Assembly: GCF_900103215.1 (NCBI RefSeq) | Contig: NZ_FNGV01000018.1 | Span: forward strand, 1 to 64,000 | Reading direction: 5' to 3' | Length of the DNA: 64,000 bases | Source of the DNA: Kriegella aquimaris | Lineage (GTDB): Bacteria > Bacteroidota > Bacteroidia > Flavobacteriales > Flavobacteriaceae | In this document: one piece after another, positions 11,310-15,724 of the stretch | How positions within the stretch are numbered: the stretch's first letter is position 1 | Layout of the letters: every line of letters starts with the position of its first letter | The notes under the pieces: model-generated | Told to the model about the DNA's origin: nothing | Seen by the model: only the letters and a program-made list of their open reading frames with translations | The model's database searches: none | Program-made: the position numbers and the translations under genes

Positions 11310-11750
11310 ATGGAACGAAAGGAATTTCTCAGAAGTTTGGGGGCAGGAGCTGCTTTTGCCCTGACATTTCCCTGTTTACAAGGGTGTTCTAAAGATGACA
11401 CTAACGGCGCGATTAAACCGGTACCTTCAAATATCGATTTTACTATCGATTTGAATTCTGCCGAAGGTGCCAAATTGGCCGATAATGGCGATTTTATTTT
11501 GAAAAATGATGTTGTTGTGGCTAAAAATTTAGAAGGAGAATTCATTGCTGCCAGTCAAATATGCAGTCATGAGGCCTATGATCAAGTTCGTTTTGTTGCC
11601 ATTGATGGTGGTTTTTTTCATTGCGAAGTACATGGTTCTCGCTTTAGTCAGACGGGTAGCCCTTTGAACCAAGTGGATAGTAAAACGGCGAAGCCCTTGA
11701 AGATTTTTAAAGTTGAAGTGTCAAATAATACGCTTCGTGTATTTGAATAA
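11310..11750 (+). CDS. Exported Rieske [2Fe-2S] protein
   Basis: 146 residues. The N-terminus RKEFLRSLGAGAAFALTF followed by LQGC (C26) reads as a Tat-like lipoprotein signal. The Rieske cluster motif is C85-S-H87 and C105-E-V-H108, two Cys and two His as needed for a [2Fe-2S] centre. The extra disulfide cysteines of cytochrome bc complexes are missing, so a low-potential, ferredoxin-like Rieske is likely. It leads a tight run of five genes with thioredoxin, ApbE, DUF4266 and DUF3570, suggesting an electron-transfer role on the periplasmic side. The redox partner is not identifiable here. Confidence 0.85.
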   Translation: MERKEFLRSLGAGAAFALTFPCLQGCSKDDTNGAIKPVPSNIDFTIDLNSAEGAKLADNGDFILKNDVVVAKNLEGEFIAASQICSHEAYDQVRFVAIDGGFFHCEVHGSRFSQTGSPLNQVDSKTAKPLKIFKVEVSNNTLRVFE

Positions 11751-11779
11751 CTGGCACTGATTTTGCTATTTTAGTTTTC

Positions 11780-12214
11780 ATGAAATACAGCATATTTTTA
11801 CTCTTTCTTTTTTATTCCGTTATGGCTTCGAGTCAAGATTGGCAGGAAGACTATAACGTGGCGCTCGAACAAGCCGAGGAACAACACAAGCCATTAATTT
11901 TGGTTTTTTCGGGTTCCGATTGGTGTGCGCCTTGTATCAGGCTCGATAAGGAAATATGGCAGTCTGAAAACTTCAAAAAATTTTCAAAGGAAAATTATAT
12001 ACTATATAGGGCAGATTTTCCGAGAAAAAAAGCCAACAAACTGAGTCCCGAACTAACCGATCAGAATAACAAATTGGCGGCTAACTTTAACTCAAAAGGT
12101 TATTTTCCCTTGGTTGTAGTTTTAAATGAAAAAGAGCAGGTCTTAGGTGAGACAGGGTATAAAAAACTTTCTCCCGATGAGTACATATCACTTCTAAACT
12201 CATTCTTAAAATGA
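11780..12214 (+). CDS. Periplasmic thioredoxin-family protein
   Basis: 144 residues with an N-terminal signal peptide (about 1-18, cleaved near ASSQ). The thioredoxin-like fold has the active site DWCAPC (C49, C52), a WCxxC dithiol, and the cis-proline region GYFPLVVV. The length and the EEQHKPLILVFSGSDWC context match the thioredoxin-7/DUF255-like group. It starts 29 nt after the Rieske gene and ends in a 4-nt ATGA overlap with apbE, so it is translationally coupled. It likely reduces a periplasmic cysteine pair, perhaps in the Cys-rich DUF4266 protein encoded two genes later; that link is inference. Confidence 0.88.
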   Translation: MKYSIFLLFLFYSVMASSQDWQEDYNVALEQAEEQHKPLILVFSGSDWCAPCIRLDKEIWQSENFKKFSKENYILYRADFPRKKANKLSPELTDQNNKLAANFNSKGYFPLVVVLNEKEQVLGETGYKKLSPDEYISLLNSFLK

Positions 12215-13206
12215 GAGTAATTATTGTTTTGATCATTGGTTTTCTGACGGTTACGATACAAGCTCAAGATAAAAAGCTTGTGACGGTGCACAAGTCAATG
12301 GAGTTGATGGGAAGCCGTTTTGATATAACCGTTGTAACTGATAATGAAGAGGTTGGCTATATAAATATTGCCGAAGCCGAAGCTGAAATTTCTAGAATTG
12401 AGAAACTGATATCTGCTTGGGATTCAAACTCAGAAACTTCATTAATAAACAATAATGCGGGAATAAAGCCGGTAAAAGTGAGTTTAGAGCTTTTTATGTT
12501 GATAGAAAGAGCCATAAAAATTTCTGATTTAACCGACGGGGCCTTCGATATTTCCTATTCTTCGCTCGATAAGGTCTGGAAGTTCGACGGCAGTATGAAA
12601 GAGAGGCCGACTGATGAACAAATCCGTAATTCCATCGCCAAGGTCGGGTATCAAAAAATTATTTTAAATGCTGAGGAAAAAACCGTTTTTTTAAAACAAA
12701 AGGGAATGAAGATTTCGTTTGGCGCTATTGGTAAGGGTTACGCCGCCGATAAGGCCAAAGAACTTCTGGTTTCTAAGCAAGTTGAGGCCGGTATTATAAA
12801 TGCAGGGGGCGATCTTACCACGTGGGGTACCAAGGCTACGGGCGAAAAATGGTTGATAGGTATTGCACATCCATTGAGTAAAGAAAAGATTTTTTCATGG
12901 TTGCCTATCGTCGAATCTTCTGTTGCCACTTCTGGAAATTATGAAAAGTTTGTATTGTTCGATGGAAAAAAGTATACTCATATCATCGATCCCAGAACGG
13001 GTTGGCCTGCTTCTGGCGTAAACAGTGTGTCAATTTTTGCTATAAGTGCCGAGTATTGCGATGCATTGGCGACTGCCGTTTTTATTATGGGTAAAGAAGC
13101 CGGACTTTTTTTAATAGATCAGCTTGCGGGTATTGAAGCTATTTTGGTCGACGACAATAATAAAATCCATAAAAGTAAGGGCATCCATTTCGAAAGTAAT
13201 GAGTAA
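12211..13206 (+). CDS. apbE: FAD:protein FMN transferase
   Basis: 331 residues with a signal peptide (about 1-19, VTIQAQ). ApbE attaches FMN from FAD to a Ser/Thr of extracytoplasmic target proteins and needs Mg2+. Family marks: MELMGSRFDI near the start of the mature protein, TDGAFDISYSSLDKVWKF, GAIGKGYAADKA, NAGGDLTTWG and THIIDPRTGWPA (the flavin and metal site). The start overlaps the thioredoxin stop (ATGA). No protein in this window carries the usual FMN-binding DGxSGATxT target motif, so its substrate is either elsewhere in the genome or unconventional. Confidence 0.94.
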   Translation: MRVIIVLIIGFLTVTIQAQDKKLVTVHKSMELMGSRFDITVVTDNEEVGYINIAEAEAEISRIEKLISAWDSNSETSLINNNAGIKPVKVSLELFMLIERAIKISDLTDGAFDISYSSLDKVWKFDGSMKERPTDEQIRNSIAKVGYQKIILNAEEKTVFLKQKGMKISFGAIGKGYAADKAKELLVSKQVEAGIINAGGDLTTWGTKATGEKWLIGIAHPLSKEKIFSWLPIVESSVATSGNYEKFVLFDGKKYTHIIDPRTGWPASGVNSVSIFAISAEYCDALATAVFIMGKEAGLFLIDQLAGIEAILVDDNNKIHKSKGIHFESNE

Positions 13207-13232
13207 CTTTAATTTATATTAGATTCATACAC

Positions 13233-13442
13233 GTGAAAAGACTGTTCTTCTTTTTTTTTGTGCTTCTTTTTTCATCGTCTTGCGTGGCGGTAAAAGAATA
13301 TGAAAAAGTATTTGTCAACGATGCTGAGATGCAATTGTCGGCAAAGGGAGATGAACGTTTTGAGACCAATTTTCAAATTTATCGTGAGGCTGCCTCGGGT
13401 GCCAACGGCGGAAGATCTGGTGGTGGTTGTGGATGTAACTAG
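13233..13442 (+). CDS. DUF4266 lipoprotein with Gly/Cys tail
   Basis: 69 residues, with a GTG start (no ATG is available). A hydrophobic signal is followed by the lipobox SSSC (C17), so the mature protein would be about 53 residues anchored by lipid. The mature part has conserved-looking VKEYEKVFVNDAEM, then a glycine-rich end, GRSGGGCGCN. The terminal CGCN is a family hallmark as I recall it. The role is not established. Two cysteines at an exposed flexible C-terminus suggest metal binding, a disulfide handled by the neighbouring thioredoxin, or a modified peptide. It is followed at once by the DUF3570 barrel gene. Confidence 0.82.
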   Translation: MKRLFFFFFVLLFSSSCVAVKEYEKVFVNDAEMQLSAKGDERFETNFQIYREAASGANGGRSGGGCGCN

Positions 13443-13443
13443 T

Positions 13444-14766
13444 TTGGGAGGTCAATATACCAAGAACACGACTAATTTTTCCTTTTTGAAAGAAACCGCT
13501 TTACTCTTTGCACTGCTAACATGCTTTTGGGCCGTCGGTCAAGAAGAGGATACTTCGTATAAGAAAAGAGTTTTAGAAGCCAGCGAAGTAAACTTGGTGT
13601 TCAGCTATTATGGTCAAAAAGGGGATCATGCCGCAGTTTCAGGTGGTGAAGGCACCGAAAAATTAACCGATGCCGCTTCAAGTATTATTGTTCAGCTTCC
13701 TTTGAATCCCGATGATGTATTGACAGTTGATGTAGGAATTTCTGCTTATACATCGGCGTCATCTAGCAATGTGAATCCATTAGACGGTGACCCATCTCAA
13801 ATTGTAAGTCCTTTTAGTGCTTCTTCGGGTGCTTCACGTAGCGACCAACTTGTTCATTTTAATCCGTCATTGGAACATAGCTCGGAGGACAGAAACAAAA
13901 TTTGGAACATTAATGCATACATCGCCTCTGAATACGATTATTTCTCATTAGGTATTGGCGGGGGATATACGTATGCATTCAATGAGAAGAATACGGAATT
14001 ATCGCTGAACGGTAAATTGTATTTTGATAAATGGAATCCTCAATATCCAATTGAATTGAGAGCAGGATTTTTTGACAATCGTATTTTGGGAAGCGGAAAT
14101 TATGAACCATCATTTACAGCTTTCGATAAAGAGAACCGAAACTCTTATTCGCTCTCCTTGGCGATTTCCCAGATTCTAGGTAAAAGACTTCAGGGTTCCG
14201 TTTTTATGGATGTGGTTATGCAGAACGGACTGTTAAGTACCCCGTTCCAACGTGTCTATTTTAGAGATACGAACGATTTTTTTATTGATGATTTTCAATT
14301 GGCCGATGATGTGGAGCATTTACCTGATTCACGTTTTAAAATTCCTATTGGTGCCAGACTGAATTATTATTTGAACGACGCTGTGGTGCTTCGCAGCTAT
14401 TATCGATACTATGCCGACGATTGGGGTATCAGTGCCCATACCGCAAGTCTAGAGGTGCCCGTGAAATTGGGAGATTCATTTACTTTGTATCCCACCTATC
14501 GATTTTACAGTCAGACCAAAGCTGATTATTTTTATGAGAAAGAGACGGCACTTTCAACCTACGACTTCTACAGTTCCGATTATGACCTTTCAAAATATAC
14601 GGCGCATCAGTACGGTGTCGGTGTTCAGTACAAAGATATTTTCACGAAAACCAGAGTGTTCATGTTTGGTCTAAAAGCCATACAGCTCCGTTTTAGCAAA
14701 TATGATAGAAGTGACGGACTTGGAGCTTTTATAACGACTTTGGGAACCACTTTTATAGCCGATTAG
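13444..14766 (+). CDS. DUF3570 outer-membrane beta-barrel protein
   Basis: About 440 residues if started at TTG 13444, one base after the DUF4266 stop. This gives a positively charged N-region and a hydrophobic signal (ETALLFALLTCFWAVGQ). A longer frame from 13300 runs inside the DUF4266 gene and is unlikely to be the true start; GTG codons near 13420-13435 are alternatives. The body alternates polar and aromatic residues as in barrels, with many YYxYY-type girdle clusters (VLRSYYRYYADDWG). DUF3570 genes accompany DUF4266 and ApbE in several phyla. Its stop overlaps the convergent ABC gene by 4 nt. Function unknown; export or anchoring of the DUF4266 product is a guess. Confidence 0.85.
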   Translation: MGGQYTKNTTNFSFLKETALLFALLTCFWAVGQEEDTSYKKRVLEASEVNLVFSYYGQKGDHAAVSGGEGTEKLTDAASSIIVQLPLNPDDVLTVDVGISAYTSASSSNVNPLDGDPSQIVSPFSASSGASRSDQLVHFNPSLEHSSEDRNKIWNINAYIASEYDYFSLGIGGGYTYAFNEKNTELSLNGKLYFDKWNPQYPIELRAGFFDNRILGSGNYEPSFTAFDKENRNSYSLSLAISQILGKRLQGSVFMDVVMQNGLLSTPFQRVYFRDTNDFFIDDFQLADDVEHLPDSRFKIPIGARLNYYLNDAVVLRSYYRYYADDWGISAHTASLEVPVKLGDSFTLYPTYRFYSQTKADYFYEKETALSTYDFYSSDYDLSKYTAHQYGVGVQYKDIFTKTRVFMFGLKAIQLRFSKYDRSDGLGAFITTLGTTFIAD

Positions 14767-15425
14767 TCAGAGGGGTCTAAATTTATATAACCTTCTTCTT
14801 CCAAATCTTTCTTAGTCCTTATCTCTTTGGAATAGCCGTTTTTCAGAAAGTATATACAATCACTGATTTCTAAAATGTCGCGATAAAAATGGTCTGTAAC
14901 AATGATGACGCTATCCTTCTTCTTTTTATGAATGATGGTCTTGAATTTCTCAATGTATACGGGAGCAATAAATGAAAAAGGTTCATCGAGCAAGATGATT
15001 TTTTTATTGGATGTAAGTATGAGGTAAGTTTCTACAATGCGAAGTTCGCCTGAAGAAAGGGCATTAGGGTGCGCACTGGCGTAGCCTTTAAAAGCATCAA
15101 AAAGATTTAAGAATTCCGTCCAATTCGCGCCAAAAAGTTGAAATACCGATCCCAATTTGAGGGAGTTGGGCAGCAGTTGATGTTGAGGTAAATAGGCGAT
15201 GTCGCGACCGAGGTAAAGGTTTCTTTTCTGGTGTTTCCCGTCTTTTCGAATGCTTTTATATTTTGGGGTAAGGCTTCCGAAAATAATGCGTAGTAGACTG
15301 GTTTTTCCGCAACCGTTCCTGCCCAGAATTCCGGTGATTTTTCCTGTTTCCGCCCTAACATAGATTCCCCTAAGAATCGTCTTGCGATCAAAACTGAGCT
15401 CTATATTGTCGGCTTCGAGAATCAA
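14763..15425 (-). CDS. ABC transporter ATP-binding protein (short, atypical signature)
   Basis: 220 residues with Walker A GRNGCGKTS (about 35-43), signature LSSGELR in place of LSGGQ, Walker B KIILLDEP and switch His in IVTDH. It is a complete nucleotide-binding domain of the peripheral type, in the cytosol. The first codon overlaps the preceding gene's stop by 4 nt (ATGA), so it is coupled to a 100-residue membrane protein. No normal permease is nearby. The DNA repair and translation ABC-F class is excluded because only one domain is present. Substrate unknown. Confidence 0.88.
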   Translation of the reverse strand: MILEADNIELSFDRKTILRGIYVRAETGKITGILGRNGCGKTSLLRIIFGSLTPKYKSIRKDGKHQKRNLYLGRDIAYLPQHQLLPNSLKLGSVFQLFGANWTEFLNLFDAFKGYASAHPNALSSGELRIVETYLILTSNKKIILLDEPFSFIAPVYIEKFKTIIHKKKKDSVIIVTDHFYRDILEISDCIYFLKNGYSKEIRTKKDLEEEGYINLDPSD

Positions 15426-15724
15426 AATAATTCCATTATCAAAAATATTAGTGTGCTGAATAGTGAATCGATTACAAAGAAAATTATAAAAAGACTTGAT
15501 TTTGAGATACCAAAATTCTTATAAAATACAAGCTTTTGCGCCAAACTTGTTTCGTAATAGGCAAAGAACAAGAATTTGCTCAAAGCTAGTTTGACAAAGA
15601 GAAGTACTAAAAGCGTTGTATTGAAGAAGATTAGAAATGTGGTAATCAATAGACTGGCCCAGAGATACTTTTTGTAAAAGTTAAAACCGAGCTGGTACGT
15701 TTTTATTCTCAAGATAATATTCAT
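15422..15724 (-). CDS. Small two-span membrane protein, partner of an ABC ATPase
   Basis: 100 residues with hydrophobic segments at about 23-47 and 76-99 and a basic loop between them (YETSLAQKLVFYKNFGISKSS). I do not recognise a family. Four-base overlap with the downstream ABC ATPase gene indicates joint translation, and the aligned Lys/Phe-rich coupling-like loop might contact the ATPase. With only two spans it would need to oligomerise or be an accessory subunit. The C-terminus ends inside a hydrophobic stretch (IFLIMELF), which is odd but not clearly truncated. Confidence 0.65.
   Translation of the reverse strand: MNIILRIKTYQLGFNFYKKYLWASLLITTFLIFFNTTLLVLLFVKLALSKFLFFAYYETSLAQKLVFYKNFGISKSSLFIIFFVIDSLFSTLIFLIMELF

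Follow-up and report, generated by a model that had tools for sequence, protein, structure and literature searches.

How bacteria without suitable surface cytochromes carry electrons over the outer membrane is an open question, and it is brought up here by an operon of five genes on one strand (+), at positions 11310 to 14766 of a stretch of 64,000 nucleotides from Kriegella aquimaris (Bacteroidota; contig NZ_FNGV01000018.1, positions 1 to 64,000), the whole of which is hereafter referred to as the window. The genes code, in this order, for a Rieske [2Fe-2S] lipoprotein, a thioredoxin, ApbE, which transfers flavin mononucleotide (FMN) from flavin adenine dinucleotide (FAD) to proteins, and two proteins of the families DUF4266 and DUF3570. 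An original prediction from this DNA described an exported redox operon in which an enzyme attaches FMN although none of the neighbouring proteins carries a standard flavinylation motif, and proposed that the flavin goes to an unconventional site or that a Cys-tailed DUF4266 peptide is modified and displayed. Which protein receives the flavin, where in the cell envelope it would lie and with what it could exchange electrons are the questions addressed below. The new elements of the answer are a predicted placement of the flavin in the outer membrane, acceptor serines conserved within a variable motif and an inferred surface partner, the Rieske lipoprotein.

A variant of a published flavinylation system

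Four of the five families are already known together. A cluster of ApbE, DUF3570, thioredoxin and DUF4266 was described by Méheust et al. (2021, eLife; PMC8238504), who reported 285 clusters with DsbD, 227 of these with DUF3570, and 316 DsbD-free clusters of ApbE, DUF3570, a thioredoxin-like protein and DUF4266. According to the same account, the Chlorobium luteolum DUF3570 is flavinylated by its own ApbE at two [S/T]GA[S/T] motifs, flavinylation is lost only if both sites are mutated, and the protein without its signal peptide is mostly in the pellet, yet flavinylated. An electron route from DsbD through the thioredoxin was proposed with the remark that the flow could be reversed, VIT1 was present in 25 clusters, and the function of the system was called uncertain by its discoverers. 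The words Rieske, barrel and porin are absent from the main text of that paper, whose single mention of 'outer membrane' concerns siderophore transporters. Among open-licence papers of PubMed Central it was the only one found to name DUF4266 or DUF3570, and no description of a Rieske-bearing variant was found among them.

The window operon, like the published clusters, holds apbE, DUF3570, a PF13899 thioredoxin and DUF4266 together, and shares with them the CxC tail of DUF4266. Of the two DUF3570 motifs, one is an exact [S/T]GA[S/T] (SGAS) and the other a Gly-to-Ser variant (TSAS). The operon differs from the published clusters in its additional Rieske lipoprotein and in the absence of DsbD from the operon itself. 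It is a DsbD-free Bacteroidota member of the published system, of a Rieske-bearing sub-type, and so a known system in variant form; the gene identities and the kinship with the DUF3570 flavinylation systems are near certain. The five genes, their families and their order were correctly predicted from the outset, while the description of DUF4266 and DUF3570 as uncharacterised is, for DUF3570, out of date (PMC8238504). The tight packing originally claimed holds for the first four genes, spaced by 29, -4 and 26 nt, while we are unsure of the start codon of DUF3570. An ATG at 13300 opens this frame, but it falls within DUF4266 and would give a 143-nt overlap; TTG 13486, which would leave a 43-nt gap, coincides with the Met position of several aligned homologues (e.g. 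L036, L047 and L048) and directly precedes a hydrophobic signal stretch, and TTG 13444 is an alternative.

Probable flavin acceptor sites and their predicted place in the DUF3570 barrel

The DUF3570 protein of the window (gene 13486..14766; Pfam PF12094, 4.1e-44) carries two probable flavinylation sites 25 residues apart, both supported by the alignment of relatives: site 1 is the variant T-S-A-S (13750..13761) and site 2 is S-G-A-S (13825..13836), the same motif as in the flavinylated C. luteolum protein (PMC8238504). The usual target motif, thought at first to be missing, is therefore present in the operon. Both motif types occurred together in 22 of 5000 shuffles of this protein's sequence.

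Conservation of the two sites was assessed in a near set, comprising the window protein and the best 80 of at least 582 confirmed DUF3570 relatives with one genome per species (81 sequences), and across the phylum. S-A-S of site 1 is invariant in 81/81 close sequences, as are the Gly and the acceptor Ser of site 2, where the motif Ala is replaced by Glu in 21 and by Gln in one. Among 62 phylum-wide DUF3570 proteins, in which site 1 aligns with the canonical [ST]GAS of other Bacteroidota, the acceptor Ser is found in 60, the motif Gly is retained in 21 and replaced by Ser in 36, and an Asp three residues before the site is retained in 50; in all of the 80 nearest proteins this Asp is Ser. Site 2 is poorly aligned phylum-wide in five loci (L085, L076, L093, L072 and L058). 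In a 2025 review of ApbE (PMC12052999) the motif is written D-x-x-[S/T]-G-A-[S/T], and about 50% flavinylation is reported after the change of Gly to Ala and minor effects after that of Asp to Ala; the Gly-to-Ser form is therefore a plausible ApbE substrate, and we infer that the TSAS variant may be flavinylated. Other forms of the sites were also observed. In an Allomuricauda/Flagellimonas clade (L096 to L107 and others) site 2 is mostly DASSGES, with the canonical Asp present and Glu in place of the motif Ala, and in the DUF3570 proteins of family f9 (L055, L056 and L060) the two sites read ASAS and S[ST]PS.

The enzyme itself (apbE, 12211..13206; PF02424, 3.2e-84) has a signal peptide, as judged by eye, and contains TSGNY, YTHIIDP and CDALAT, which by our own mapping would hold the conserved Ser, His and Asp of the review (PMC12052999); of 78 near ApbEs, 68 contain SGNY, 70 the His stretch and 75 DALAT. 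The sole other ApbE of the genome adjoins a flavin/NAD reductase that is NqrF-like by eye, which leaves the operon enzyme free for DUF3570. Flavinylation of DUF3570, demonstrated on a relative (PMC8238504), is by analogy probable for the window protein.

An AlphaFold2 model of the mature DUF3570 (from 13540 onwards), built from 81 sequences, has a predicted local distance difference test (pLDDT) score of 87.5 and a predicted template modelling score of 0.82. A hand count on its DSSP string gives 16 strands. The borders of strands and loops were likewise set by hand, 314-316 and 319-325 being joined and the short strands 247-249 and 264-267 left in a loop. The turns on one side are 2-8 residues long and the loops on the other 2-39, the latter including all the long ones (11, 31, 33, 39 and 27). 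Near end-to-end matches by Foldseek and VIA-align 2 were outer-membrane barrels (BamA barrel, Z 21.3; OmpG, Z 17.1). Together with a signal peptide recognised by eye, an even number of strands and short turns opposite long loops, the model bears out, as a prediction, the outer-membrane barrel that had been proposed.

In the model, strands 3 and 4 are connected on the long-loop side by a flexible loop of 31 residues (71-101), and this loop holds both of the probable flavin sites. The FMN loop would presumably be at the extracellular end of the barrel, because in such barrels both termini are periplasmic. When residues are ranked by conservation over 142 aligned rows, the top 50 include 28 of 108 outer-half strand residues and 6 of 103 inner-half ones (p = 6e-5), counts that pool lumen-facing with other residues. 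The pelleted and still flavinylated DUF3570 of the published work (PMC8238504) fits modification ahead of folding.

The Rieske sub-type, its partners and its distribution

The Rieske lipoprotein gene (11310..11750; PF00355, 1.5e-8) encodes the cluster ligands CSH...CEVH (11562..11633; C85-x-H87...C105-x-x-H108), identified from the sequence and its alignment. Among solved chains its sequence is closest to b6f-type Rieske subunits, and next to arsenite-oxidase and dioxygenase ones. Rieske proteins of the bc1/b6f type carry extra disulfide cysteines, which are missing from the window protein in the alignment, and their absence suggests a lower potential. The window protein shares the CxH...CxxH fold family with the subunits of b6f/bc1 and arsenite oxidase; unlike them, it is a stand-alone lipoprotein without the second disulfide Cys pair, in an operon without a partner cytochrome b or oxidase subunit. 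In locus L055 (5487-6008; family f9) a protein in the Rieske position lacks the second Cys ligand (SPNH for CxxH).

The signal for export of lipoproteins to the surface in Bacteroidetes has been given as C-X-K-(D/E)2-X (PMC5080379), and the window Rieske agrees with it, having a lipobox followed by the lipid-anchored Cys and S-K-D-D (CSKDD; 11385..11399). A strict set of export signals was found in 20 of 38 scored clade Rieske proteins, 4 of 52 other lipoprotein-like frames of the same loci and 0 of 79 DUF4266 proteins, and C-x-K-[DE]-[DE] in 19 of the 38 (one of 39 being unscorable); the corresponding p value of 2e-6 overstates the case, since the Rieske sequences are related, and the background of 52 frames is small and includes near-copies. 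These figures supersede an earlier rough count (22 resembling the export signal and 41 net negative out of 48 parsed, 49 in all) in which the lipid Cys had been misassigned in a few rows, e.g. L057. Going by its N-terminal sequence, the Rieske protein would probably reside on the cell surface. TatC, of the twin-arginine translocation (Tat) pathway, is present in the genome.

Between the Rieske and ApbE genes lies a periplasmic thioredoxin-like gene of the Thioredoxin_7 family (11780..12214; PF13899, 2.1e-17) with the active site CAPC (11924..11935); WCxxC is present in 75 of 77 Thioredoxin_7 matches of the near loci. The DUF4266 lipoprotein gene (13233..13442; GTG start, 69 aa; PF14086, 2.6e-18) has its lipobox Cys, assigned by eye, at 13281-13283, which gives a mature peptide of 53 residues ending in GGGCGCN, with Cys-Gly-Cys at 13428..13436, in agreement with the length of about 53 residues, glycine run and CGCN end originally noted. 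Among 140 DUF4266 proteins, CGC falls within the final seven residues in all and GGGCGCN is found in 133. A stretch SGAN/AGAN in the tail (window 13395-13406; 83/140) resembles the flavinylation motif except that Asn replaces the acceptor, and might dock on ApbE without being modified. Elsewhere in the genome there is one strong and one marginal DsbD_TM match.

The survey of 296 genomes of the phylum found DUF4266 in 83 and DUF3570 in 86, all 83 DUF4266 genomes having both. From it a set of 61 loci was drawn, consisting of the window and 60 loci chosen for holding DUF4266 (40 outside family f17, being all those listed there other than the window's, and 20 within it), so that the count of DUF4266 itself in this set is meaningless. 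A DUF3570 frame begins less than 300 nt after DUF4266 in 60 of the 61 and lies upstream instead in L085. ApbE and Thioredoxin_7 were found in 56 and 55 of these loci, and in 79 and 75 of the 80 nearest DUF3570 loci, respectively. Co-occurrence had been set beforehand as a refutation test of the original prediction, which these figures do not refute. The order Rieske, thioredoxin, ApbE, DUF4266 and DUF3570 is seen in 39 of the 80 near loci, with CxH..CxxH intact in 39/39. Phylum-wide, a Rieske gene lies upstream of the thioredoxin in 10 of 61 loci, a count that includes L055 despite its lost ligand and excludes L078 and L090, where the matches lie about 7 kb off and belong to bc-type Rieske proteins; a broader pattern search for overlooked Rieske proteins in the 61 loci returned only frames judged by eye to be due to chance.

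In a DUF3570 tree of 142 rows, built by a quick method that warns of long branches, the window protein belongs to a group with good support, in which 41 of 43 rows have a Rieske gene; of the other two, L118 is cut by a contig end and L124 has a different lipoprotein in that place. The Rieske label requires at least 7 changes on the tree (shuffled mean 40.8), 6 of them forced by well-supported branches, and no single origin is therefore claimed. The sub-type keeps its chromosomal place: an AIR-synthase-like gene lies upstream in 36/39 Rieske loci but 1/41 others, and downstream there is, in 38/39 but 2/41, a gene with a GGQ motif that by eye is release-factor-like. Both sub-types are carried by [Muricauda] yonaguniensis 334s03 (L099 and L147). 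The lipoprotein of L124 (1373-1963), from an Allomuricauda metagenome-assembled genome, stands ahead of the thioredoxin and begins with an export-like CSDDN, and it looks as if surface partners may be swappable.

The window operon is flanked by an AIR-synthase-like gene on one side and on the other by an opposite-strand gene for an ATP-binding cassette (ABC) ATPase; the latter and, after it, a small frame that resembles a membrane protein and matches no family (14763-15724, -) are arranged tail to tail with the operon, and similar frames occur beside some relatives. Many genomes of family f17 (e.g. G201:C45:38098-40488) have several DUF3570 matches, some in tandem, and one open frame of 832 aa in this family spans two of them. 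No match to the DUF3570 patterns tried was found in viral contigs.

Proposed direction of electron flow and its significance

An exported redox operon thus remains a sound description, and the outward movement of electrons proposed for it a plausible reading. In the mechanism that we favour, periplasmic ApbE would move FMN from FAD to the Ser of TSAS and SGAS in DUF3570, probably before folding, and the β-barrel assembly machinery would place DUF3570 in the outer membrane with its FMN loop extracellular or folded into the lumen. A DsbD encoded elsewhere would reduce the CAPC thioredoxin, which would in turn reduce the CGC of DUF4266. The latter would be a lipoprotein on the periplasmic face of the outer membrane, and its Gly-rich tail would reach the FMNs. 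The flavins would accept two electrons from the dithiol and pass them one at a time to the surface Rieske [2Fe-2S], and from there to an outside acceptor, perhaps Fe(III). A DsbD-type reductase, CAPC, CGC, FMN and [2Fe-2S] form a chemically sensible chain. The barrel, the side of its loop and the export signal are predictions, and the contacts between partners, the direction of flow and the final acceptor are put forward by inference; the route as a whole, from thiol through barrel FMN to surface Rieske and outwards, is in our judgement evenly balanced between right and wrong.

Several observations weigh against this route. The motif segments have pLDDT values below 50, the lowest in the model, which allows the loop to point outwards or into the lumen. 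In the 81 close rows the conservation of outer and inner strand halves does not differ significantly (19/108 versus 11/103, p = 0.17), and the extracellular loops are overall less conserved than the strands over 142 rows (0.422 versus 0.499). Neither the glycine nor the aspartate of the motif is present at site 1. The Tat-like N-terminus of the Rieske protein has Arg-Lys, not Arg-Arg, and net negative charge after the lipid Cys was rejected as a sign of surface export, 36 of 52 background frames being alike in this respect and the strict motif alone separating the two. The Rieske gene was not found in 41/80 near and 51/61 phylum-wide loci and is therefore accessory, although six and three of these, respectively, have less than 2.7 kb of upstream sequence and, in the near set, say little on its absence. 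An outer-membrane barrel is some 35 Å in height, so that periplasmic thiols would be out of reach of an extracellular FMN unless the tail threads the lumen or the loop dips; the transfer from periplasmic thiol to outer-end FMN is the weak step, which either arrangement would solve.

Other explanations account for parts of the same evidence. The barrel FMN may serve metal uptake by reducing, at the surface or in the lumen, Fe(III) or Cu(II) for import, with the Rieske protein as a storage or tuning site instead of an outward conduit. VIT1 neighbours, which fit the favoured route as well, point to iron: the transporter is near 9 of 61 loci, a figure given without a background rate, and in 25 published clusters (PMC8238504). 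CusA-type resistance-nodulation-division pumps are near 13 of the 61 and sensor kinases near 19, by eye and again without a background rate. Such neighbour counts depend on a single-linkage threshold, and Pfam checks cover the VIT1, b561 and DsbD representatives. Among the recurrent neighbours of the Rieske sub-type, up to a distance of about 6 kb, however, no metal transporter was seen, and those retained in 36 to 38 of 39 Rieske loci, named by eye, look housekeeping; metal uptake is possible, but we hold it doubtful. A reversed flow, in which the surface Rieske or FMN oxidises an outside reductant and electrons pass to periplasmic disulfides, appears improbable. All the carriers are reversible in principle and the possibility was noted by Méheust et al. 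(PMC8238504), but in many genomes, according to the same paper, DsbD-type donors to thioredoxin are encoded in a cluster with the system, and a DsbD-like cluster, whose representative is a DsbD-thioredoxin fusion, is near 16 of our 61 loci, which fits reduction from the cytosol.

DUF4266 might alternatively bind or sense metal or help DUF3570 to fold, its CGC passing no electrons to FMN. CxC is also a metal-binding arrangement, and the adjacency of DUF3570 and DUF4266 persists even where ApbE or thioredoxin was not found; against this, the thioredoxins that accompany most loci have an intact CxxC, which favours thiol exchange, and the idea seems unlikely to us, if slightly less so than reversed flow. 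The proposal that ApbE loads an unconventional site such as DUF4266, or that the Cys-tailed peptide is modified and displayed, can now be given very little credence. The SGAN/AGAN stretch recalls the motif, but [ST][GS]A[ST], with its Ser/Thr acceptor, occurs in the last 55 residues of 0/140 DUF4266 proteins, and display of the peptide is unsupported, the surface-export signal being absent from this family as counted above. DUF3570, in turn, is the published target, flavinylated in a relative (PMC8238504), and its conserved motifs make an unconventional site unnecessary, except to the extent that TSAS of site 1 is not the exact motif.

The favoured route, from periplasmic thiols through the barrel FMN to the surface Rieske protein, can be set beside other electron-transfer systems. 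As in Nqr/Rnf and other flavinylated FMN_bind proteins, ApbE would join FMN to Ser/Thr through a phosphoester, whereas Pfam finds no FMN_bind domain in the five operon proteins. If the model holds, the operon resembles the porin-cytochrome conduits of the MtrCAB type in that an outer-membrane barrel would carry redox cofactors across to a lipoprotein at the surface; unlike these, it encodes no multihaem cytochrome, no CxxCH haem motif being present in its five translated proteins, and flavin, thiols and [2Fe-2S] would take that place. The more specific picture of a cytochrome-free conduit, with two covalent FMNs on an outer-half loop of the 16-strand barrel, which would take two electrons from a Gly-tailed CGC lipoprotein extending in from the periplasm and release them singly to a surface Rieske protein, and with a Gly-to-Ser variant of the flavinylation motif, is offered tentatively, as the less probable outcome.

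A widespread system thus gains a concrete predicted geometry, with FMN sites at the outer end of a barrel, and a likely surface partner in a Rieske lipoprotein with an export signal. If this is true, the substrate rule of ApbE would be broader, admitting Ser for Gly in the motif and, in one clade, Glu for Ala, and Kriegella aquimaris would possess a flavin and iron-sulphur counterpart of the porin-cytochrome conduits.

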